Of a DNA stretch of 64,000 bases, positions 41,446 through 52,167 are shown piece after piece. Origin of the DNA: Desulfosporosinus fructosivorans (GTDB lineage: Bacteria; Bacillota; Desulfitobacteriia; Desulfitobacteriales; Desulfitobacteriaceae); assembly GCF_004766045.1 (NCBI RefSeq), contig NZ_SPQQ01000008.1, positions 85,062 to 149,061 on the forward strand, given 5' to 3'. The notes below the pieces were generated by a model. That model did not search any database. It worked only from the letters and a program-made list of their open reading frames with translations, and was not told the DNA's origin. How positions within the stretch are numbered: position 1 is the first letter of the stretch; every line of letters starts with the position of its first letter. The position numbers and the translations under genes were made by a program.

Positions 41446-41480
41446 TTTACAAATACCACAAATAGTGTAATATTACACTA
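41446..41480 (+). promoter_or_regulatory. Promoter with perfect 18-bp palindromic operator for the XRE gene
   Basis: TTTACA (41446-41451), 16-bp spacer, TAATAT (41468-41473). The -10 box lies inside TAGTGTAATATTACACTA (41463-41480), a perfect 18-bp palindrome, and AAGGAG follows at once. A repressor bound here would block its own promoter, so autorepression by the XRE-type protein is likely. Confidence 0.78.
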
Positions 41481-41495: not shown

Positions 41496-41957
41496 TTGAC
41501 GAGAATGGAATTCATAAAATTTGCCTCTGAAAAATTAAAACTCATCCGCATTGAAGGTGGATATACCCAGGACAAAATGGCTGAAATACTGGGTATGTCT
41601 AAAAAGACCTTGGTGCAGATTGAAAAAGGACGGTCCACCCTGGGCTGGGCAGGTGCCGTTACAATGTGTACGATTTTTAAAAATAGTGAGGTCTTAGAGA
41701 TGACTTTTGGAGGGGATCCTCAAGATATCATCCTTTCTTTAGCCTTCACCGATTCTGAAAGTAATGAAAAAACCATGGGAGGGAAAGTATGGTGGATAAA
41801 TATTAAGTTAACGAATGAATTCCGCATCCAGCGAAATATTATTTCCGAGCACTATCGGATTCTCGACAGTAAGGACCGAAGGATTTGTTCTTCCTTTGAT
41901 TACGACTATATCAAAAAACGAATGCAGGAGCTTGCAGAAAAGGGTGAGGTTAGATGA
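41496..41957 (+). CDS. XRE-family regulator heading the lipid-type cluster
   Basis: 153 residues from TTG 41496, nine bases after AAGGAG; ATG 41505 would be too far from it. Residues about 14-70 form a Cro/CI helix-turn-helix (LIRIEGGYTQDKMAEILGMS, KKTLVQIEKGRSTLGWAGAV). The C-terminal part (VWWINIKLTNEFRIQRNIIS, HYRILDSKDRRICSS) is a small domain of unknown role. It ends one base before the UbiA start, so regulator and prenyltransferase are co-transcribed. Confidence 0.82.
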   Translation: MTRMEFIKFASEKLKLIRIEGGYTQDKMAEILGMSKKTLVQIEKGRSTLGWAGAVTMCTIFKNSEVLEMTFGGDPQDIILSLAFTDSESNEKTMGGKVWWINIKLTNEFRIQRNIISEHYRILDSKDRRICSSFDYDYIKKRMQELAEKGEVR

Positions 41958-41958
41958 A

Positions 41959-42939
41959 TTGGTAAAATTCATGAAGGCTTATATCAAATCAATGAGGCTT
42001 TACTATGCTTTTGTAACCGGGATTGCGGGCTGGATTGGGATGGCGTTTTACGAATACATCGCCAAATCTCCCTTTCAGACAGTGGAGCTCGTACCCGCAA
42101 CCGAAAAGAAAGCCTTAGTCCTGATCATGCTTTTTCTCAGTTGGGGTACAAACCAGATTATCAATGACTATCTGGGTTTAAAAGAGGACAGGGTCAATGC
42201 ACCAAACCGTCCCATGGTAACTGGCGAACTCAATCCTGGAAAGGCTCTAGCCTTAACGGGAGTCCTGCTGACTATGACGCTTTTGGTTACATACACGTAT
42301 CTAGAACCTATTGCCCTTATTCCCGCAATTCTGGGAATCGTTTTAAACATTCTCTATGAATATGCCAAGGGTCACGGTATTTTTGGGAATATCGTCTTTG
42401 GCCTGATGATTGCCATGTGTACCGCCTTTGGGTTTCTGGCAGCAGGTCCCACAGAGTCCCCCTATTTTACGTCCAGTCGGGTTTCCGTGCTGATCTTGGT
42501 AGCGGTAATGAACGGGCTGATGACCTTTTATACCTATTTTAAAGACTATGAAGGAGACAAAGAGGCAGGTAAACGGACGATCATCGTATCGCTGGGGATC
42601 GAAAAATCTCGTTATCTTGCGGTAGTCTCCGCTTTTCTCCCTGCAGTGATCTTTGCGCTCCTCTATTTAAATCACTTTATTGAGGCCAGAGTTAACACGA
42701 TGTTCCTCATCCTCTCTGGATTAACGGTTTTTCTAGAATTGTGGACGGGCTATCTTTACTTTAAGAACCCCCAGGGTGAGAGAACTTATTATTCTCTGGT
42801 GGCAAATTTTCGAGCTTGTATCTGCGGACAGGCAACCTTAATTGCGTTATTTAATACCGAACTATCGATGATCCTATTCTTAGTATCTTATATGTTTGTT
42901 GGATTCTTGTTTGATCTGCACACTGATCCTAAATCATAA
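41959..42939 (+). CDS. UbiA-superfamily prenyltransferase
   Basis: 326 residues from TTG 41959, eight bases after AGGGTGAGGT; ATG 41971 is the alternative. Eight to nine membrane helices are visible. The first Asp-rich motif is NDYLGLKEDRVNAPNRPM and the second DYEGDKEAGKRTI, the two Mg/diphosphate sites of the family. It should transfer a prenyl chain from its diphosphate to an aromatic, quinone, lipid or glycerol acceptor. Its membership in the ACP/oxoamine-synthase cluster suggests an unusual acceptor, though a menaquinone or heme-type role cannot be excluded. Confidence 0.85.
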   Translation: MVKFMKAYIKSMRLYYAFVTGIAGWIGMAFYEYIAKSPFQTVELVPATEKKALVLIMLFLSWGTNQIINDYLGLKEDRVNAPNRPMVTGELNPGKALALTGVLLTMTLLVTYTYLEPIALIPAILGIVLNILYEYAKGHGIFGNIVFGLMIAMCTAFGFLAAGPTESPYFTSSRVSVLILVAVMNGLMTFYTYFKDYEGDKEAGKRTIIVSLGIEKSRYLAVVSAFLPAVIFALLYLNHFIEARVNTMFLILSGLTVFLELWTGYLYFKNPQGERTYYSLVANFRACICGQATLIALFNTELSMILFLVSYMFVGFLFDLHTDPKS

Positions 42940-43105
42940 GGGAACCTTACGAAAGGCGAATTAAGTCCTAGCTACTTTACAACGTGAAAATGCTCAACAC
43001 ACTTCACTTCCGTTACACTTAGTTTCTATTAAATTCGAAAGCGTTGCCTTATATTAATATTCGAACCACCACGAAGCATGAACCACGATCCAAGGGAGGG
43101 ATGGT

Positions 43106-44302
43106 ATGAAGTTATTTGAACCAGCAATGTTAGGCACCTGCCAGTTGAAAAACAGGCTGATCCGCTCGGCAACCTTCGAGGGAATGGCGGATCCTCAGGG
43201 TTATCCAAGACCAGAGTACCGAGGTTTATATAAAAAATTGGCTTCTGGAGGCGTGGGCGGGATTATAACTGGCTTTGCATATATCTCGCCCGAAGGAAAA
43301 GCGATGCAACCTGGTCAGGTCGGAATCGATTGTGAAGAAAGGGTCGAAGCCTTTTTGCCCGTCACGAACGAGGTCCACCAATACGGCTGTAAGATTTTTA
43401 TGCAGTTGGCCCACACCGGAAGACAGACCAGAAAAGCGGAAACAGGGCAGGATGTCTGGGGTGCCTCGACTAAAGAGTCCTTGTATTTTGGGGGTTCTCC
43501 TCGGGAGTTGTCAACTGAGCAGGTGTATTCAATGGTCAATAGGTTTGCAGAAGCCGCGATATATGCGAAGGCAGCGGGATTTGACGGAGTCCAGGTTCAT
43601 GCTGCCCATGGCTACCTTATCCATCAGTTTCTACTTCCTACTATTAATAACAGAGACGATGAATTTGGTCTTGACGTTCAGAGTGGTATCGGCACGAAAT
43701 TCCTTGGCCTGGTGATCGAGGAGATCCGCAAGACATGTGGACCTGATCTTGCCCTGTTGGTCAAGGTTAGCGGCAGTGATGACTATTTCCCCAGATTCTC
43801 CGCCGAGCAGTTTGCTAGCTTGATACGATTCCTTGATGCTCAGAAAGTCGATGGGATAGAGGTTAGCTATGGGACGATGGATAATGCCCTGAATATCTTT
43901 CGCGGGGATATCCCTCTTAAAGTGATTTTAAAGCATAACCCAGTATTTAAGAGCAACAACGGGCTTAAGGGATTGCTCCATAAGGCGTTTATCTTCTGCT
44001 TGATGAGGATGAAACTAAAGCCTTTTACCCCTATTTACAATCTTGAGTATGCCAAACTGGCCAAATCTTTAACGAGTATTCCCATAATCAGTGTCGGCGG
44101 TTTCCGGAAGGGTGCAGAAATGAGTGAGTGCCTTGAGCATGATTTTGCTGATTTTATAAGCCTGTGCAGACCCTTTATTTGTGAACCAAATCTGGTCAAT
44201 AAGCTGGAGCAAGACGAAAATTATTCGGCAAAATGCGTCAACTGCAACGTTTGCGCCATTATGTGTGATTCAGACCAACTAACTCGTTGTTACAAGCGAT
44301 GA
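43106..44302 (+). CDS. Old-yellow-enzyme family NADH:flavin oxidoreductase
   Basis: 398 residues, ATG 43106 after GGGAGGG. OYE motifs: [27 protein letters not shown], the [20 protein letters not shown] substrate/FMN site with the conserved HAAH, and ISVGGFRK for FMN phosphate. The end [19 protein letters not shown] may hold an Fe-S or zinc site. It would reduce an activated C=C bond (enone or dienoyl). It is 166 bases after the UbiA gene and directly upstream of the acyl carrier protein. Confidence 0.85.
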
Positions 44303-44325
44303 TTTCAGTGGGAGGTGGGCGTCAG

Positions 44326-44565
44326 ATGAATTTGGAAGAGCGAATTATAAGCACGATATACGGTGTTTTAGAAAAAAGTTCAGACATAACCCCTGAGAGC
44401 CGTTTACAAGAAGACTTAAAGGTGGATTCCTTAGACCTCTTAATGATTCTCTCAGGCTTGGAGGATGAATTCGCCATAATCATTGCAGAAGATGATTTTC
44501 TCGATGTAGTTACGGTCAATGATATCGCAGTAAAACTTCGAGCCCGAGGTGTGTCAGATAGCTAA
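44326..44565 (+). CDS. Acyl carrier protein
   Basis: 79 residues from ATG 44326, eight bases after GGAGGTG; an earlier in-frame ATG at 44287 lacks a site. The attachment motif is LKVDSLDLL with Ser35 for 4'-phosphopantetheine. The rest has the acidic four-helix ACP composition (LEDEFAIIIAEDDF). As a stand-alone ACP beside an alpha-oxoamine synthase and a ketosynthase, it most likely carries the acyl chain for a specialised lipid, rather than serving bulk fatty acid synthesis. Confidence 0.9.
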   Translation: MNLEERIISTIYGVLEKSSDITPESRLQEDLKVDSLDLLMILSGLEDEFAIIIAEDDFLDVVTVNDIAVKLRARGVSDS

Positions 44566-44588
44566 CAGCCCTTGGATAGGTTAAATAA

Positions 44589-44620
44589 ACTTCAGATGGA
44601 GCTAATACTCCACCTGAAGT
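44589..44620 (+). promoter_or_regulatory. Intergenic mRNA hairpin between ACP and oxoamine synthase genes
   Basis: ACTTCAGATGGAG (44589-44601) and CTCCACCTGAAGT (44608-44620) form a 13-bp stem (one G-T) with a 6-base loop. No T run follows and the next gene's GGAGGG comes 14 bases later, so it is more likely to set relative expression by attenuation or RNA stability than to end transcription. Confidence 0.55.
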
Positions 44621-44644
44621 AAGTTCTATAATTGGAGGGAAAAC

Positions 44645-45820
44645 ATGGATCTAAGAGAGTTTTATAACCGATTTAGCTTGGACGAGAGCCTTGCCGAAGA
44701 AGTTGGACATAATCCCTATTACCTGAGAGTTGAATCTGGATTGAATGAAAGAATTCAGGTGAACGGACATGAGATGATTGACCTGGCATCGAACAATTAT
44801 CTGGGTCTGGCCACAGACAGTAGGGTGAAACAAGCTGCTGAGGAGGCCATAAAAAAGTATGGGGTTTCTCTCTGTGGAACACCCATCGCCACAGGCTACC
44901 TTGATTTATACCAAAGGTTAGAAGAGAAGCTATCAAGCTTTGTCGGGCTGGAAGAGACGATTATCCTACCCTCGTGTTACCAGGCAAATAATGGCTTATT
45001 TAGTTGTATTGCTGGAGCCCAGGATCTGATCGTCGTTGACCGGTATGCCCATTCTTCCTTGATTCAAGGAATCAAATCCGCTGGCTGTAAAATTAGGCCC
45101 TTTCTTCACAATGATCTTGAGCATCTGGAAGGGATTTTGCAGCGTTCCACTGGGTACCGGCAGGTCTTTGTTGTGACAGAGTCCGTGTTTTCCACGGAGG
45201 GCAGCATTGCTCCTTTTAAGGAAGTTGTGCAATTGTGTGAGACCTATAACGCCATGCCTGTGATTGATGATTCCCATGGTATTGGAGTGCTGGGAAAATC
45301 GGGGCGAGGTATTCTTGAGGAGCAGGGAATCGATGGATACCTTGGAATCTATACAGCGTCCTTAGGAAAGGCACTGGCTAACTCAGGGGGGATGATCAGC
45401 GGTAAGAAAGGGCTGATAGGTTATCTGAAATATTACTGCCCTCACTTAGTTTATTCGACGGCCCTTACCCCTGCAGTTCTGGCCGGCACAGTGGCTGTTC
45501 TGGAAGTCATTCGCGCTGACTTCGAAGTGCTTAAGCGTAAGTTGGTGACCTATCAACAGGCGATCTATGAAAGTCTCGTTGAGGGGGGCTTTACAGTCTC
45601 GACGGGTGAGGCCCCTATAAATTCAATTCAATCCGGAAGTAAAGAAGCGACGTTCAAACTAGCTAAGAGGCTTTATGAACAGGGGATTCTTTCCACAACG
45701 TTTATTGAACCCTCTGTCCCAGTCGGTGAAGGTCGAGTCAGGTTGATCGCTGGAGCCAATCTCACCTCGGAGACGGTTGCCGAAGCCACGGAAATTATTA
45801 AAAGGGTAAGACGCCTGTGA
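44645..45820 (+). CDS. Alpha-oxoamine synthase (BioF/KBL/serine palmitoyltransferase family)
   Basis: 391 residues, ATG 44645 after TTGGAGGG. PLP enzyme with the AONS pattern: DLASNNYLGLATDSRVKQA, GVSLCGTPIATGYLDLYQRL, DRYAHSSLIQG (stacking His), ESVFSTEGSIAPF, DDSHGIGVLG (Asp for the pyridine nitrogen) and TASLGKALANSGG with Lys242 as the Schiff-base lysine. The reaction is decarboxylative condensation of an amino acid with an acyl thioester. Biotin synthesis (BioF) is unlikely because no bio genes are near; the neighbouring ACP, kinase, SDR and KS genes favour a sphingoid-like base or related amino ketone. Its stop overlaps the next gene by 4 bp. Confidence 0.88.
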   Translation: MDLREFYNRFSLDESLAEEVGHNPYYLRVESGLNERIQVNGHEMIDLASNNYLGLATDSRVKQAAEEAIKKYGVSLCGTPIATGYLDLYQRLEEKLSSFVGLEETIILPSCYQANNGLFSCIAGAQDLIVVDRYAHSSLIQGIKSAGCKIRPFLHNDLEHLEGILQRSTGYRQVFVVTESVFSTEGSIAPFKEVVQLCETYNAMPVIDDSHGIGVLGKSGRGILEEQGIDGYLGIYTASLGKALANSGGMISGKKGLIGYLKYYCPHLVYSTALTPAVLAGTVAVLEVIRADFEVLKRKLVTYQQAIYESLVEGGFTVSTGEAPINSIQSGSKEATFKLAKRLYEQGILSTTFIEPSVPVGEGRVRLIAGANLTSETVAEATEIIKRVRRL

Positions 45821-46803
45821 GATATCTCTTAATCATGAATCCCGGTTCTGGCGGGGGCAGTAAGGAAAAGGTTGAGAAAATCCTGACAATCTTTCAGCAA
45901 AGCCGGCTTGAGTTTGACTATAAGCTAACAGATACCTTAGAAGATGCCTATACTCTATCCGTCGAAGGAAACACTAAGGGCTATGATGTGATCGTAGCTG
46001 TGGGGGGAGACGGAACGATTAACCGGGTCATCAACGGGTTTTATGATTCTGAGGGTAGAAGAATTTCCAGTTCCAAACTGGGTGTCATTCATATCGGAAC
46101 CAGCCCTGACTTATGTAATAGCTACAATATACCGCTGGACATTGAACAGGCTTTGAACACTGTCTTTGCGGGAAAGAGTCAAGAAATTTCCATCGGTAAA
46201 ATAACCTACACTTGTGCTTATGACCAGGGACTGGAGGGTCAACCGATACAGCCGCTAAGTAAGATTAACAGAAATGTGCAAACCAGTTATTTTGCTTGCT
46301 GTGCCAATTTCGGCTTGGGAGCCTCCGTCGCCAGAAGTGCTAACAGCGGTATAAGAAAGTATATCGGAGATTACGCTGGGACATTTGCCTCCCTGATTAA
46401 AACCTTATTTGAGTATAAACCCAATCACTTCTCCGTTCGTTTTGACGGACAGAGTGAGGTGCTCGAAAAGGTTTATAATATTTCCGTGGGCAAGACAACG
46501 TACATAGCTTCAGGTATTAAAGTGAAGAACCAGTTAACTCTTGGAGACAAGCGGTTTTATGCTCTAACCATCAAGGAGATAGGCTGGGCTGATTGGTTCA
46601 ATGTCCTTTTGAAACTATACAGGGGGAAGAGGTTTGGCAATACCAAGTCGATGTCCCTGCAATACGCCTCATCAATAGAAGTGTACGGAAATAGCAAAAA
46701 TCCTGAAATAGAGTTTGATGGGGATCCTAGAGGGTTTTTGCCGTGTGTGATTGAAACTGCACGGGACCCCTTAGACTTGATATGTGAGGTGCATGATGAG
46801 TAA
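45817..46803 (+). CDS. Diacylglycerol/sphingosine-kinase-like lipid kinase
   Basis: 328 residues. The DAGK catalytic pattern is clear: LIMNPGSGGGSKEK at the N-terminus, VAVGGDGTINRVINGF, and HIGTSPDLCNSYNIP in the place of the usual GTxNDxAR. The second domain (ASGIKVKNQLTLGDKRFYAL, EIEFDGDPRG) is the typical beta-sandwich lipid-binding part. It should phosphorylate a lipid alcohol. Overlapping the oxoamine synthase gene by 4 bp, it may act on that pathway's product, like eukaryotic sphingosine or ceramide kinases of the same fold. It may alternatively be diacylglycerol-specific. Confidence 0.85.
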   Translation: MRYLLIMNPGSGGGSKEKVEKILTIFQQSRLEFDYKLTDTLEDAYTLSVEGNTKGYDVIVAVGGDGTINRVINGFYDSEGRRISSSKLGVIHIGTSPDLCNSYNIPLDIEQALNTVFAGKSQEISIGKITYTCAYDQGLEGQPIQPLSKINRNVQTSYFACCANFGLGASVARSANSGIRKYIGDYAGTFASLIKTLFEYKPNHFSVRFDGQSEVLEKVYNISVGKTTYIASGIKVKNQLTLGDKRFYALTIKEIGWADWFNVLLKLYRGKRFGNTKSMSLQYASSIEVYGNSKNPEIEFDGDPRGFLPCVIETARDPLDLICEVHDE

Positions 46804-47797
46804 AGAAACAGAAATGATTGAGCTGATAAATAAGCATATGCCGAGGAGTATCAATCAGCTTAATAAGCTCTTTGAGTCCGACTCGGAAATAGTTCAGTTT
46901 CAGGGAAAGAGACTTCTCTACACGATGGACGAGTTTTCGGAAGAAGACCTATTAAGGGATAAGGACCCTTACGTGCTGGGCTGGAATATGGCAGTTGGCA
47001 GTATCAGTGACATCCTAGCCTCGGGGGGGACTCCTAAGTATTATGCGCATAGCTTAGTGATCCGAAAATCCTGGTCCCAAGACTATGTGAGCAAATTGTC
47101 TCAAGGGATCGCTCAGGTACTTAAGGAAGTGGGGGCAGCGTTCATCGGTGGAGATTTTGGGACTTCCAAAACTTGGCGCTACACTGGTTCGGTCATTGGA
47201 GAGCTAGAGGGAGAGCCCCTGTTAAGGAGTGGGGCAAAGGTTGGAGATGGGATTTATGTGACTGGCCACATCGGCGGCGGGAATATTGAAGCTGCCCTAG
47301 TCCTGTATGCCAAAAACCCCTACATTAAGCATTTAACGGGTCAATGGAAAAAACCTTTCCAGTTGAGAAGCAAAGAGGCAGAGCTCATAAAACGACACAG
47401 CTGCTGCTGTATTGATACCAGTGATGGAATCTTTAACGCGCTCAATTCTATTTCAGAGATGAGCGAAACTGGTTTTGTGGTAAGCGACCTACCCTATATA
47501 GAAAGTGGGGTATTCCTGGCCAAAGGCCTTAACCTACCCGAGGAAGTGCTGTTTTTAGGGGAATGTGGGGAGTATGAATTGCTTTTCACTCTGAGTAAAG
47601 AAGGCGAAGAAGAGTTTCTAAACGAAGCCCAGCAGAAGACTTTGAAGTTCTATAAATTAGGTGAAGTTAAGGACCAGGGCAGCAAATCACTATGGAAGAA
47701 AGATCGGGAGATCGACTTAGCGATGTACGATTTGAGTGCTAGAGATTTCTCAGATTCGAAAGACTATTTGCGAGCTGTGGCAAATTTTCTAAAGTAG
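46796..47797 (+). CDS. ThiL-like (AIR-synthase superfamily) protein
   Basis: 333 residues from ATG 46796 (GAGG at 46786-46789), overlapping the kinase gene by 8 bp; GTG 46784 and ATG 46793 are possible. Motifs of thiamine-monophosphate kinase: the N-terminal lid with MDEFSEEDLL, GWNMAVGSISDILASGGTP, IGGDFGTSKTWRYTGSVIGE, DGIYVTGHIGGG, IDTSDGIFNALNSISEM and LFLGECGEYELLFT. The fold binds ATP and a phosphorylated substrate. Its location in a lipid-type operon, away from thi genes, suggests a different phosphate acceptor; a true thiamine role cannot be ruled out. Confidence 0.8.
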   Translation: MSKETEMIELINKHMPRSINQLNKLFESDSEIVQFQGKRLLYTMDEFSEEDLLRDKDPYVLGWNMAVGSISDILASGGTPKYYAHSLVIRKSWSQDYVSKLSQGIAQVLKEVGAAFIGGDFGTSKTWRYTGSVIGELEGEPLLRSGAKVGDGIYVTGHIGGGNIEAALVLYAKNPYIKHLTGQWKKPFQLRSKEAELIKRHSCCCIDTSDGIFNALNSISEMSETGFVVSDLPYIESGVFLAKGLNLPEEVLFLGECGEYELLFTLSKEGEEEFLNEAQQKTLKFYKLGEVKDQGSKSLWKKDREIDLAMYDLSARDFSDSKDYLRAVANFLK

Positions 47798-47856
47798 AGG
47801 GACTCAAGTCAAATTACCAACAACGAACATCGCACATCGATTTAAAGGAGGACCAA

Positions 47857-49200
47857 GTGAAACGAAGAGTTGTTATTACTGGGATCGGACCGGCCACAGC
47901 CATAGGAATTGGTAAAAACGATTTCTCAGCAGGGATTTACGGTTTAAAAACGTGCATAGCTGAGATTCCGAAGTGTTATGAACAGAACTATACGTTCAAA
48001 TCGCGTTACTTTGTTCCTAAACCGGAATTCTCCTTGACCGATTTAATCCATAAATCCGTGGAAGGGATGATGGAAGAATCCTCGAGACTTTCCGTCTTAT
48101 GCGCGAAGTTGGCATTAGAGGACGCAGGATATCAGATTGATAAGGCTGAAAAACACATGCAGGTTAAGGGATTGGAAAACTGCCCTATCATAATCGGTAC
48201 TGGTATGAGTAGCTTGCAAACCGCTTTGGAATCCTACTCAGCTCATATGGTTGGGGTAGAAATGTCCGAGTCTGATTTTGAGTCTAGAACTGGTTCTAGT
48301 TCTAGTTCTGGTACTAATCCTAATCCTAATCCTAATCCTAGAACAACCGGATCAGGAACTCGGTTCAACAGAATGGTTATTCCCATGCTGATGACTAATT
48401 CGCCTGCTGCCTGGATTTCGATACTATTCGGACTGAAAGGGTTTAATTATACGCTCAATGCCGCCTGTGCCTCAGGGACTTTTGCTCTTGGTGAAGGGTA
48501 TAGAACTATTTTATCCGGCAGAAGTGATGTGATCCTAGCGGGTGGAGTGGAAGCCCTAGTAGAAAAGAATGGCGCAATTATGAGAGGGTTTGATATGCTG
48601 TCAACCCTTACCAGAGCCAAGGACGGAAGGCCTCAGCCGTTTTCTCAGCAGAGAAGCGGGTTTTTATTCAGTGAAGGGTCAGGTTGTGTTCTCGTTCTGG
48701 AGGAGCTGGAAAGGGCACGGAATAGAGGGGCTGACATTTATGCTGAGGTTGTTGATTACGAAGCGTGCAGTGACGCTTACAGTATTGTGCAGATGGAGCC
48801 CTCCGGGGACAGTATTACTGGGCTTTTTCAGAAGGTGACCCAGGGGATCAAGATTGACTATCTAAATGCCCATGGTACGGGGACATTGGCTAATGATGAC
48901 ATTGAAGCCCAAGTTATCCAACGGATCTTTGGAGCTAAAAGCACTCAGCCGTACATTAATTCTACTAAAGGGATCCTAGGCCACAGCATTGGAGCCAGTG
49001 GAGCCCTTGAGGTGGCAGTAACGGCCTTATCGATCAAAGAGTCGAGACTCCATGGGAACCTAATGTCTGAGCCGATGGATAATCTGAATCTACCACTAGA
49101 GACAATTGAGACTCCAATTGACTATGCACTCTCTGCTTCCTACGGCTTTGGGGGGCATAATGCCCTGATCCTACTGAAGAGATATGAAGAGAATGAGTAA
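47857..49200 (+). CDS. Beta-ketoacyl-ACP synthase (KAS II-like) with repeat insert
   Basis: 447 residues from GTG 47857 after AAAGGAGG. The thiolase-fold catalytic triad is complete: Cys204 in NAACASGT, His339 in NAHGTGTLANDD and His376 in KGILGHSIGASG. It should extend or prime an acyl chain on ACP. Residues about 143-167 are a low-complexity insert (SSSSSGTNPNPNPNP) encoded by hexanucleotide repeats, absent from ordinary FabF proteins (about 410 residues). The N-terminal region (GLKTCIAEIPKCYEQNYTF) also diverges from FabF, fitting a specialised enzyme. The stop overlaps the next gene. Confidence 0.88.
   Translation: MKRRVVITGIGPATAIGIGKNDFSAGIYGLKTCIAEIPKCYEQNYTFKSRYFVPKPEFSLTDLIHKSVEGMMEESSRLSVLCAKLALEDAGYQIDKAEKHMQVKGLENCPIIIGTGMSSLQTALESYSAHMVGVEMSESDFESRTGSSSSSGTNPNPNPNPRTTGSGTRFNRMVIPMLMTNSPAAWISILFGLKGFNYTLNAACASGTFALGEGYRTILSGRSDVILAGGVEALVEKNGAIMRGFDMLSTLTRAKDGRPQPFSQQRSGFLFSEGSGCVLVLEELERARNRGADIYAEVVDYEACSDAYSIVQMEPSGDSITGLFQKVTQGIKIDYLNAHGTGTLANDDIEAQVIQRIFGAKSTQPYINSTKGILGHSIGASGALEVAVTALSIKESRLHGNLMSEPMDNLNLPLETIETPIDYALSASYGFGGHNALILLKRYEENE
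48292..48339 (+). repeat. Hexanucleotide microsatellite inside the ketosynthase gene
   Basis: Four related units (GGTTCT, AGTTCT, AGTTCT, GGTACT; 48292-48315) run into four exact AATCCT units (48316-48339). They encode Gly-Ser/Ser-Ser and Asn-Pro pairs. Length changes by one unit would add or remove two residues without a frameshift. Confidence 0.9.
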
Positions 49201-50224
49201 GGTCATGATTACTGGAGCCACAGGATTTATCGGTAGTCATATTGCTAGGGCCTTCTGTGAAAGCCTGGTTAGTGTAGGCTGTTTGGTAAGAGAAGGCAGC
49301 AGCCTGGCCAACCTTGAGGGTCTGCCTGTCGAGATAAAGACTGGAGATATTAAAAACATAGGGGATTTAACTAAGGCTTTCGCTGGCTATGACTGGGTGA
49401 TTCATAATGCCGCCAAAGTATCCGACTGGGGGAATTATGATGAGTTTTATCAGACAAATGTTACTGGCACAATCAATGTACTAACTGCTTGTGTGCAGGC
49501 CGGGATCAAGAATGTCCTGATAACAGGGTCCAATTCCGTATACGGCGAAGAGAATACCTTGCTCGTAAAGGACGAAACGTCGCCCTATAATTCGCATTAC
49601 CAGTACTTTGGAGACCGTTTTTTCCCCTGTAAGTTGAATTTCTATCGCGATACTAAAGCCCTGGCCAAAAAAGAGGCCCTCGAGTTTGCAGGCGCATTTG
49701 ATTTAAACCTGACTATATTAGAGCCGGTTTGGGTCTATGGTGAGATGGAGTTAAACGGGGGATTTTATGAATACCTTAAAACAGCCAAGGCTAGAATTCC
49801 CTTGGTGCCAGGAGCAAAGCAGAACAAATTCCATGTCATCTATGCCGGAGATCTGGCCAGAGCTTATGTTCTAGCCTATACAAAACATCTAACAGGGGTA
49901 AATTGTATCCTAGTTGGCAACGAACAGGCGGAAAGCATGGACAGAATTTATAGGTTATTTTGTTCTGAAGCAGGACTTAAAAAACCCGGGAATCTTCCTA
50001 AGCCCCTGAGTTATCCCATTGCTTTGCTGATGGAGCTTTTATACACTGTGGTTAAGGCCCAAAGTCCCCCACTTCTAACTAGGGGGCGGGTTAACATGTT
50101 CTACGACAATTTAGAGGTTTCAGTGGCGAAGGCTGAGCAGCTTCTAGGGTTTAGAAACGCCTATAGCCTTGAGGAAGGTATTAAAAAAACGGTCCTATGG
50201 TACAAAGAACAAGGTCTGATCTAA
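49193..50224 (+). CDS. Extended SDR, NAD(P)-dependent epimerase/dehydratase family
   Basis: 343 residues from ATG 49193 (GAAGA just upstream); ATG 49184 in the same frame is possible. The Rossmann motif is ITGATGFIGSHIARAF. LITGSNSVYGE gives the catalytic Ser and YRDTK the Tyr/Lys pair. The family includes 3-beta-hydroxysteroid dehydrogenase-like enzymes and the bacterial ketosphinganine reductase CerR. In this cluster, reduction of the 3-keto group made by the oxoamine synthase is the natural guess; sugar or steroid-like substrates are alternatives. It overlaps the ketosynthase gene by 8 bp. Confidence 0.82.
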   Translation: MSKVMITGATGFIGSHIARAFCESLVSVGCLVREGSSLANLEGLPVEIKTGDIKNIGDLTKAFAGYDWVIHNAAKVSDWGNYDEFYQTNVTGTINVLTACVQAGIKNVLITGSNSVYGEENTLLVKDETSPYNSHYQYFGDRFFPCKLNFYRDTKALAKKEALEFAGAFDLNLTILEPVWVYGEMELNGGFYEYLKTAKARIPLVPGAKQNKFHVIYAGDLARAYVLAYTKHLTGVNCILVGNEQAESMDRIYRLFCSEAGLKKPGNLPKPLSYPIALLMELLYTVVKAQSPPLLTRGRVNMFYDNLEVSVAKAEQLLGFRNAYSLEEGIKKTVLWYKEQGLI

Positions 50225-50231
50225 AAGGGAT

Positions 50232-51578
50232 ATGAAATGGGGTAGGCCCGTGATCAAGATAAGAAATGTTACTGGCTGGCAAAAAACAAAGTTTAACCTG
50301 AAACTAAAAATAAACATCTTTTTTCACCATATCCCGGTGCTTTGCAAAAGAGAGATTTCCTTTACAGGGTTTATTCTGCTCTTAAAAAGGCTGTTGCTTT
50401 TTGTGTCTAAGATGCAGCACAATAAATTTGTTAATATCGACGGTAAGACAAGGTTAGGTCTCTACGTACCAGGTTATCCATCCCAGGCTTTTTACACTGC
50501 CTGTCATAAATTCAGTCAGTTCTCAGAAAAAATGCCCTGCACCACAGTCTTGTTATCGATTACCTCCGCCTGCCCCTATCATTGCAATTACTGTTATCAG
50601 AAGTTAGATAAGGGCAAGGATGTCGAGCTAGAGACGTTGATCAAGACCGTAAGAAAGCTGCAGGAGATGGGAATTGCCTTTTTTAATATTGAGGGTGGCG
50701 AGCCCTTTATAGTTTATGAGCGGTTAAAGAGGGTTTGCACAGTTATTGACGCCAGATCGGAAATCTGGATCAACTCTACAGGCGCTGGGATGAGTCCAGA
50801 AAAGCTTTCAGAACTTAAAGAATTGAACGTGACAGCCATTATGTTTTCTCTACACAGTCCCGATGCCGTTACGTTTAATCAGTTTATGGGGGAGGATTCT
50901 GCTTGGGATACTATGGAGAAAGGGGTTGAGATGTGCCACAAGGCGGGCCTAGCGGTGGCGTTTAATACCTGTCTGATGCGAGAGGACTTTTATAGTGGTA
51001 ATTTTGAGAGGATTATGGAGGCGGCCAAAGGCTTTGGGGCCTGTCTTATCCAGATCATTAAGCCAAAACCTGCCGGAGGGTGGCTGGAAAAAGGAAATAT
51101 TGAGTTTACCACTGAGAATCTTAATTATATTAAAAACAGGGTGAATCAATACAATTTGGAAGAAGCGTTCTCTGAGTATCCTGCAATCTCGGCTCAGATT
51201 ATTGAGGAAGATAAAGCAGTGTTCGGCTGTACGGCTGGAGGTACGGATAGATTTTATATCAATGCCAAGGGGGATTTACAGCCCTGTGAGTTTCTTAACA
51301 TATCTTTTGGTAATATCATGGTGGATGAATTTGAGGATATTTATCAAAAAATGCGCAATTGCTTCGCCTGGGGTGGAGAGCGCTATCTATGTGAGAGTTG
51401 CTCAAAGGATATTTATAAGGTATTTCTGGAAAATGAATTAAAATCCCTACCTCTGACTCCCACGCTGTCGGAGAAGATCTACAGTTCCTGGGATCGGGGG
51501 AAGAAAACGGATTTATACGAGAGGTTGGAGAAGATGATTAGGAGTGGGCAAGCAAATATATTTGGAAGGAGAAAATAA
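50232..51578 (+). CDS. Radical SAM/SPASM-like protein
   Basis: 448 residues, ATG 50232 after AAAAGGGA. The cluster motif CPYHCNYCYQ (C-x3-C-x2-C) is followed by FFNIEGGEPFI and MFSLHSPD; the C-terminal CTAGG ... CEFLN ... CESCSKD cysteines fit an auxiliary SPASM/twitch cluster. The first 70 residues are basic with a hydrophobic stretch ([19 protein letters not shown]), suggesting membrane association. The reaction is not predictable; radical C-C or C-heteroatom chemistry on the cluster's lipid product is possible. It follows the SDR by 7 bases. Confidence 0.85.
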   Translation: MKWGRPVIKIRNVTGWQKTKFNLKLKINIFFHHIPVLCKREISFTGFILLLKRLLLFVSKMQHNKFVNIDGKTRLGLYVPGYPSQAFYTACHKFSQFSEKMPCTTVLLSITSACPYHCNYCYQKLDKGKDVELETLIKTVRKLQEMGIAFFNIEGGEPFIVYERLKRVCTVIDARSEIWINSTGAGMSPEKLSELKELNVTAIMFSLHSPDAVTFNQFMGEDSAWDTMEKGVEMCHKAGLAVAFNTCLMREDFYSGNFERIMEAAKGFGACLIQIIKPKPAGGWLEKGNIEFTTENLNYIKNRVNQYNLEEAFSEYPAISAQIIEEDKAVFGCTAGGTDRFYINAKGDLQPCEFLNISFGNIMVDEFEDIYQKMRNCFAWGGERYLCESCSKDIYKVFLENELKSLPLTPTLSEKIYSSWDRGKKTDLYERLEKMIRSGQANIFGRRK

Positions 51579-51579
51579 T

Positions 51580-52167
51580 ATGAGTATAAATAACGAAATC
51601 TTAAATTGCATCCATGAGCGGAGGAGTACGCGCCGATTTACTGACAAACAAATATCATCGGAACAACTGGATGCTCTGCTTGATGCTGCAATATGGGCAC
51701 CTAGCGGCGGCAATAGCCAAAGCTGGCTGTTTACGGCGATTCAGAAAAGAGAGGTGCTTCTTCATTTAAACGAGCTTGTTCGTGAAGGATTTCAACATTG
51801 GATTCCTGATGACGATTACCCCGGCAAGCAAGCTATAAAGGAGCATTCGCAAAAGGAAGGTTATAACTTCTATCGCGAAGCGCCAACGCTCATCATTGCC
51901 TCCAATCGCCCAAATTACGAAAATGCAATGGCAGATTGTGCGATGGCGCTCCAGAATATTTTTCTTGCGGCCCAGTCTCTGGGGTTGGGAAGCTGTTATA
52001 ACAACCAACTTCATTGGCTTCGGGATGATCCTGGTGTCCGAGCGTATCTGCTTGAATTGGGCATCCCAAAGGAGCATACGATCTGCTCTTCCGCGTCTAT
52101 CGGTTTTATAGGTGCAGAATCGACTGCGCCTATTCGTAAAGAAGGTACGATACACATTATTCGATAA
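51580..52167 (+). CDS. Nitroreductase-family flavoprotein
   Basis: 196 residues from ATG 51580, one base after the radical SAM stop, with AAGGAG in that gene's end. Motifs: HERRSTRRFTDKQ (FMN-binding Arg), AAIWAPSGGNSQSW, DCAMALQNIFLAAQSLGLGS and the C-terminal IGFIGA. It reduces quinones, nitro groups or enones using NAD(P)H. It is the last gene of the run, ahead of a terminator; whether it belongs to the pathway or only to the transcript is open. Confidence 0.88.
   Translation: MSINNEILNCIHERRSTRRFTDKQISSEQLDALLDAAIWAPSGGNSQSWLFTAIQKREVLLHLNELVREGFQHWIPDDDYPGKQAIKEHSQKEGYNFYREAPTLIIASNRPNYENAMADCAMALQNIFLAAQSLGLGSCYNNQLHWLRDDPGVRAYLLELGIPKEHTICSSASIGFIGAESTAPIRKEGTIHIIR

Follow-up and report, generated by a model that had tools for sequence, protein, structure and literature searches.

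The window analysed here, a 64,000-nucleotide stretch of the 6.12-Mb genome of Desulfosporosinus fructosivorans (contig NZ_SPQQ01000008.1), carries on its + strand, at 41496-51578, a cassette of ten genes: an XRE-family regulator followed by nine enzymes, among them an alpha-oxoamine synthase and a UbiA-family membrane transferase. An earlier, sequence-only reading had proposed that these genes form an undescribed, sphingoid-like lipid pathway, and the ten gene types that it named, from XRE to radical SAM, are indeed all present on one strand where it placed them. We favour, at a probability of about 0.55, the reading that the cassette is one autoregulated unit, spread by occasional transfer, for a self-contained pathway to a membrane lipid derived from an amino-ketone or amino-alcohol.

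The cassette and its operator

Gene families were assigned with Pfam and NCBIfam, and the features lie in the following order:

41464..41479 (strand.): operator-like perfect palindrome AGTGTAATATTACACT, overlapping a promoter-like -10 box before the XRE gene
41496..41957 (+): XRE-family helix-turn-helix regulator (Pfam HTH_19/HTH_3), kept in 14/14 genus loci and in other Bacillota
41959..42939 (+): UbiA-family integral membrane transferase of the DGGGP-synthase/chlorophyll-synthase branch (Pfam UbiA 97 bits vs 34)
43106..44302 (+): Old-yellow-enzyme-type flavin reductase (OYE; Pfam Oxidored_FMN)
44326..44565 (+): dedicated acyl carrier protein (ACP) with a DSL motif (Pfam PP-binding)
44645..45820 (+): alpha-oxoamine synthase (AOS; Pfam/NCBIfam, tree, residues)
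45817..46803 (+): YegS/DgkB-type lipid kinase, here the DAGK-like kinase (Pfam DAGK_cat and YegS_C; nearest DgkB 2qv7)
46796..47797 (+): ThiL-like kinase of the AIRS fold (nearest ThiL structures; Mg/ATP Asp residues kept)
47857..49200 (+): FabF-type ketosynthase (KS), Cys-His-His intact (Pfam, residues)
49193..50224 (+): extended short-chain dehydrogenase/reductase (SDR), HpnA/OleD-like, Y154-x3-K158 kept
50232..51578 (+): radical SAM enzyme (rSAM; Pfam Radical_SAM and SPASM)

The genes are packed less tightly than the many 1-8 bp overlaps described earlier would imply: three of the ten junctions overlap (AOS/DAGK by 4 bp, DAGK/ThiL and KS/SDR by 8 bp each), and the rest are gaps of 1-166 bp. 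The suggestion that the XRE gene has an operator of its own fared better. Upstream of XRE in 21/22 other Bacillota cassette loci the palindrome AGTGTAATATTACACT recurs with 0-3 mismatches, and the exception (L080) has neither the palindrome nor a visible XRE gene. Since the source genome holds a single perfect copy, the one before the cassette XRE, a regulon reaching beyond the operon was rejected as a route to function. XRE accompanies the cassette in Bacillota only, where it is probably a local autoregulator.

A nitroreductase gene (51580-52167) starts one base after the radical SAM gene and had been counted with the set. It adjoins the cassette, but tblastn finds a match to it in 0/14 same-genus loci, and we rejected it as a member; the unit therefore ends at 51578.

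Conservation and distribution

Within Desulfosporosinus, UbiA is present in 16/30 genomes, the source genome counted, and an AOS orthologue turned up in 14 further genomes. In all 14 loci fetched from the genus the ten genes follow one another unchanged in order, with identities of 55-92%; one of these loci is cut by a contig end inside the SDR gene. The ThiL-like gene occurs in exactly the 16 genomes that have UbiA. Beyond the genus, a scan with the UbiA alignment against one genome per species gave 80 loci, ~68 of them with close UbiA relatives, whose cassette content was established by tblastn with all cassette proteins. About 18 phyla, represented mostly by anaerobes, share the nine enzymes with their order largely kept: Bacillota, Cloacimonadota, Auribacterota, a proteobacterial metagenome-assembled genome (MAG), Neomarinimicrobiota, Delongbacteria, Bacteroidota, Fibrobacterota, Calditrichota, Omnitrophota, Desulfobacterales, Synergistota (a reduced copy), Latescibacterota, Ignavibacteria, Phycisphaerae, Spirochaetes, Riflebacteria and Bdellovibrionota. 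The search of other genomes that had been proposed as a check thus finds neighbours conserving the set, and what was taken for a pathway unit is a real and conserved one; its description as a feature of "a Firmicute" was too narrow.

The order seen most often is UbiA-OYE-ACP-AOS-DAGK-ThiL-KS-SDR-rSAM. Ignavibacteria and one Bacteroidetes genome have it circularly permuted (ThiL-...-rSAM-UbiA-OYE-AOS-DAGK), and the permuted loci (L110, L116, L117, L124, L128, L092) look as if one half had been moved before the other. Between pairs of loci, UbiA distances correlate with the distances of each partner (r 0.69-0.83, permutation p 0.001); shared ancestry is part of this correlation, which therefore tells no more than that the genes move as a group. 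The UbiA tree clusters largely by phylum. Carriers were rare in the groups that we sampled, amounting to 4/291 Bdellovibrionota, 10/40 Riflebacteria, 5/168 Fibrobacterota and, in an even sample of Bacillota, 1/398, that one being the source genome; this patchy presence fits occasional transfer and loss of the cassette. A plasmid collection searched with UbiA gave no cassette-type match. Isolates among the carriers include Desulfosporosinus spp. (such as D. hippei DSM 8344 and D. lacus DSM 15449), Petroclostridium sp. X23 (a complete genome), a Herbivorax sp. and Acetivibrio alkalicellulosi.

UbiA, AOS, the DAGK-like and ThiL-like kinases, SDR and radical SAM occur in almost every full locus and form the core. 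The Latescibacterota, Synergistota and Delongbacteria loci have no OYE, and the cassettes of Ignavibacteria and one Spirochaete have neither KS nor ACP. One Synergistaceae MAG locus (L106:10001-15649) is without OYE, KS and DAGK and has an apparently broken ThiL-like gene, possibly a decaying copy. Additions are lineage-specific, and no tenth partner recurs across phyla. Riflebacteria and Bdellovibrionota cassettes add an MMPL/HAE3 transporter similar to the hopanoid transporter HpnN; in Riflebacteria, where the full set was confirmed on additional DNA, there are also a dehydratase-like gene next to KS and another ACP. Elsewhere we saw one protein without assignment in Ignavibacteria and small clusters in Omnitrophota; the additional protein c13 and the insert of L092 gave no Pfam match.

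Enzymes of the cassette

Which kind of synthase stands at this locus? The best NCBIfam score of the cassette AOS is with the BioF model (TIGR00858), at 305 bits against a cut-off of 426; the KBL model gives 297 against 460 and the three SPT models 265/640, 227/500 and 172/670 bits (score/cut-off), while the nearest solved relatives are bacterial SPT and E. coli KBL (1fc4), equally. In a maximum-likelihood tree with KBL, BioF, ALAS, SPT and PigH references, which carries long-branch warnings, the main cassette AOS forms a group of its own apart from all of these, and a separate BioF-like copy in the source genome (L032) falls with BioF. Tree and curated cut-offs together reject an identity as BioF, KBL or SPT, and the clustering with BioF that had been named as a refuting outcome is not seen. 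In Riflebacteria, Bdellovibrionota and Phycisphaerae the cassette AOS falls with PigH (98/89; long-branch warning), so a second synthase type would have been recruited into the same pathway there. The main group keeps K242, D208, H211 and H136, and its loop C77-G/A-T79-P80 is invariant (T79 in 42/43) where the references mostly read G-S-R or similar. The position of T79 recalls published work on ALAS, and the annotated ALAS that we compared has Ser; we draw no conclusion from this about amino-acid specificity.

The UbiA protein has as its nearest relative, by sequence and by predicted fold, the archaeal DGGGP synthase 6m31, followed by the UbiA proteins of A. fulgidus and A. pernix; its predicted model (pLDDT 92) matches the folds of 6m31 and 4od5. 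Motif 3 (DxxxD) is intact. Motif 1 reads NDYLGxxED, not NDxxDxxxD, with its second Asp kept in 59/60 sequences and a Glu immediately before it in 59/60. In DGGGP synthase the motif-1 pair D66/D70 binds Mg, and the substrate is a phosphate-bearing lipid with a free hydroxyl (PMC9385802).

Two kinases follow the synthase. The DAGK-like enzyme has GGDGT in 46/46 sequences and bears only a remote resemblance to the DAGK-family kinase in a Roseomonas sphingolipid-type locus. The ThiL-like protein scores 144.6 bits against the TIGR01379 cut-off of 184. Its gene tracks UbiA in the genus, and in 7/19 other carriers a second ThiL exceeds the curated cut-off; on these grounds it is a specialised kinase, and we rejected it as the housekeeping thiamine kinase. 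No ThiL over the curated cut-off was found in the source genome or in any of the 30 Desulfosporosinus genomes searched. ThiL-family enzymes convert a phosphate to a diphosphate, and in plants a phytol kinase and a phytyl-phosphate kinase feed a UbiA enzyme, a pairing that the two kinases and UbiA of the cassette recall and that we treat as a lead only.

Catalytic residues are conserved throughout the remaining enzymes as well, save for KS in one lineage. OYE has conserved active-site residues (H165/H168/Y170) and four C-terminal cysteines (C377/C380/C383/C395) for a 4Fe-4S cluster, as in FadH, and is without the FAD/NAD domain of FadH-type enzymes. ACP, present in most loci, has its D-S pair in 26/26. 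In four Riflebacteria KS copies (L120:14482-15726, L121:14485-15729, L127:13000-14241 and L132:8423-9835) the Cys is kept and both catalytic His are replaced by Ser/Thr, which suggests a putative acyltransferase role instead of a condensing one. The KS of the window also contains a low-complexity Ser/Asn-Pro repeat insert (48283-48345, residues ~143-163), of very variable length between close relatives and resembling a microsatellite-like linker inside an otherwise conserved enzyme. Of the NCBIfam models, HpnA and OleD come closest to the SDR; OleD reduces 2-alkyl-3-oxo acids. In the radical SAM enzyme CxxxCxxC is conserved in 46/46 sequences, and the enzyme keeps three more, auxiliary-cluster, cysteines; its AlphaFold2 model (pLDDT 92) includes two N-terminal helices that possibly lie on the membrane.

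The proposed pathway, its alternatives and its relatives

What might such a set of enzymes make? Gene families, catalytic residues, order and co-divergence, distribution and the exclusion of BioF and of housekeeping ThiL were computed directly, and we infer the substrates, the amino acid, the order of steps, the prenyl donor and the lipid nature of the product. A membrane transferase, a lipid-kinase fold and an ACP, with an exporter in two lineages, point most likely to a lipid whose precursors are an amino acid and an acyl thioester; because the Riflebacteria and Bdellovibrionota versions include an HpnN-like MMPL exporter, the product is probably a lipid. ACP and KS, both accessory, would supply an acyl-ACP; AOS would join the acyl chain to an amino acid in a decarboxylating condensation dependent on pyridoxal phosphate; and the SDR would reduce the ketone. 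The DAGK-type kinase would then phosphorylate a hydroxyl, and the ThiL-like kinase would add a second phosphate to the phosphate so made or to that of a phosphorylated partner. UbiA may link the phosphorylated amino-alcohol to another hydrophobic chain, probably a prenyl one, or may alternatively use the diphosphate made by both kinases as its donor. OYE would reduce an activated C=C bond, and the radical SAM enzyme would carry out a late modification of chain or head group.

Several points weigh against this reading. The first Mg-binding Asp of UbiA motif 1 is Gly in 60/60 sequences, and the donor may therefore differ from an ordinary prenyl diphosphate, or metal binding may be rearranged; an ordinary prenyl-diphosphate donor is thus uncertain. 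We know of no precedent for a ThiL-like step in any lipid pathway. Solved and fold relatives of the radical SAM enzyme are only generic (SPASM/viperin/MoaA), the MMPL exporter is not in most cassettes, most non-Bacillota carriers are MAGs, and the proposed product and steps are predictions from the genes.

We sought a match between the nine-enzyme set and known pathways and identified none. The openly accessible literature, to which our search was mostly confined, yielded no description of such a gene set or such a lipid, of Desulfosporosinus sphingolipids, or of UbiA combined with AOS and radical SAM; provisionally, the pathway is undescribed. We advance tentatively, as the less probable part of our proposal, that it defines a new class of bacterial membrane lipid: a long-chain amino-alcohol phosphate derived from an amino acid, carrying an isoprenoid or other diphosphate-derived second chain added by a metal-motif-altered relative of DGGGP synthase, after a DAGK-then-ThiL-like activation new to lipid synthesis, in a cassette that has reached about 18 phyla, mostly in anaerobes. 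An undescribed nine-enzyme pathway so distributed would mean that a class of lipid or hydrophobic metabolite is missing from the picture of anaerobes and their sediments. A hybrid of fatty amino-alcohol and isoprenoid, if that is the product, would combine sphingolipid-like with archaeal-type lipid chemistry in a way new to bacteria and might serve as a biomarker. The pathway would also give the ThiL fold a further role and extend UbiA by a variant with an altered metal motif. The split between presence and absence within one cultured genus (16/30 genomes) makes the product directly testable by comparative lipidomics.

Among the alternatives we consider first a prenylated or alkylated hydroxy-pyrrole, which we regard as unlikely. 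The sequence-only reading had itself offered a prenylated amino-ketone pigment or an alkyl-pyrrole, and these too keep some probability. Here KS and ACP would give a beta-ketoacyl-ACP that AOS and an amino acid would turn into an amino-diketone and then a pyrrole, as PigJ/PigH do for prodigiosin, with UbiA alkylating the ring and the kinases activating a hydroxymethyl group. The co-occurrence of KS, ACP and AOS fits PigJ/PigH logic, a diphosphate from the DAGK-like and ThiL-like enzymes would suit a UbiA-type transferase, and there is the PigH grouping of the AOS in three lineages, with its long-branch warning; the main AOS group, however, is not nearest PigH. Nor are KS, ACP and AOS always together, or KS always catalytically complete: Ignavibacteria and Spirochaete cassettes keep the rest of the set without KS and ACP, and the Riflebacteria KS copies are without both catalytic His. 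The SDR, moreover, would remove the ketone required for ring closure. A prodigiosin-type cluster (PigH-like, polyketide synthase, RedY) was seen on a 919-kb plasmid of Pseudoalteromonas xiamenensis (L158).

A true sphingoid pathway, from serine and acyl-ACP through 3-keto-sphinganine and (by SDR) sphinganine to (by DAGK) sphinganine-1-phosphate, with the other genes as decoration, we hold to be improbable. Known sphingolipid loci have the synthase beside a special ACP, in Caulobacter also a ceramide kinase, and cerS in a different operon (PMC11324152). The sequence-only reading had likened the cassette to such loci, and the likeness stands: AOS, a dedicated ACP next to it, an extended SDR and a DAGK-fold kinase occur together as in Caulobacter and Rhodobacteria (PMC11324152) and in the Roseomonas locus, and bacterial SPT is among the best solved relatives of AOS. 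Identity with them is not supported. KBL (1fc4) scores equal to SPT; AOS lies outside the SPT group, far below the SPT cut-offs (265 vs 640 and 227 vs 500 bits), with a substrate loop C-G-T-P, not G-S-R; and the kinase is remote from that of Roseomonas. The SDR, with its Y-x3-K, is nearest HpnA/OleD among the NCBIfam models, has matches in the plasmid collection as well, and may or may not be a counterpart of CerR; neither an acyl-ACP synthetase (AasR) nor a ceramide synthase or N-acyltransferase (CerS) is present in the cassette, the part of the genome searched for them. The Roseomonas mucosa locus itself, on plasmid p1-AD2 (L159), consists of ACP, an SPT-like AOS, a DAGK-family kinase and a CDP-alcohol phosphatidyltransferase.

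We give a similarly small probability to a secreted or diffusible small molecule (a signal, pigment or antibiotic-like compound) in place of a structural membrane lipid. Patchy distribution and a dedicated local repressor would suit such a product, MMPL transporters also export natural products, and AOS enzymes make CqsA-type signals; yet most cassettes are without an exporter or resistance gene, no non-cassette partner recurs across phyla, and conservation of the whole set over many phyla is unusually strong for a secondary metabolite. Every protein does come from a large, common family, but chance neighbourhood of unrelated housekeeping paralogues (such as BioF, ThiL or FabF copies) is refuted by the ten-gene order in 14/14 genus loci, the order kept over about 18 phyla and the correlated divergence, with family-specific residue signatures and the separate canonical ThiL in 7/19 carriers also against it, and its probability is negligible.

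Set beside known systems, the amino-lipid pathway that we favour borrows from several and coincides with none. Its AOS belongs to the superfamily of BioF, its best-scoring NCBIfam family, but stays below the cut-off (305 vs 426 bits), in a separate tree group and in a cassette without biotin genes. Its second kinase shares the fold and catalytic Asp residues of ThiL, but falls below the curated cut-off, tracks the cassette and stands beside canonical ThiL in 7/19 carriers. UbiA has archaeal DGGGP synthase as its nearest solved relative and shares the motif 2 Tyr/Lys and motif 3 Asp with it, but is bacterial, sits in an AOS cassette and has an invariant Gly for the motif 1 Asp. As in prodigiosin synthesis by PigH/PigJ, KS, ACP and AOS would act together, and in some cassette lineages the AOS falls with PigH; unlike there, the proteins are separate, there is no peptidyl carrier protein or adenylation domain and no methyltransferase, and SDR, kinases, UbiA and radical SAM are added. 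The Rhodobacteria sphingolipid loci (spt, acpR, aasR, cerR, cerS; CpgB) likewise unite an AOS, a dedicated ACP, an extended SDR and a DAGK-fold lipid kinase at one locus, but the cassette has a non-SPT synthase, is without AasR and CerS, and adds UbiA, the ThiL-like kinase, OYE, KS and radical SAM as conserved members, of which the ThiL-like, UbiA, OYE and radical SAM steps have no counterpart in sphingolipid synthesis. By analogy with these loci, the cassette is partly sphingolipid-like in its predicted working (the AOS, SDR and DAGK steps) and yet not a canonical sphingolipid pathway, because its synthase, when tested, fell outside the SPT group.

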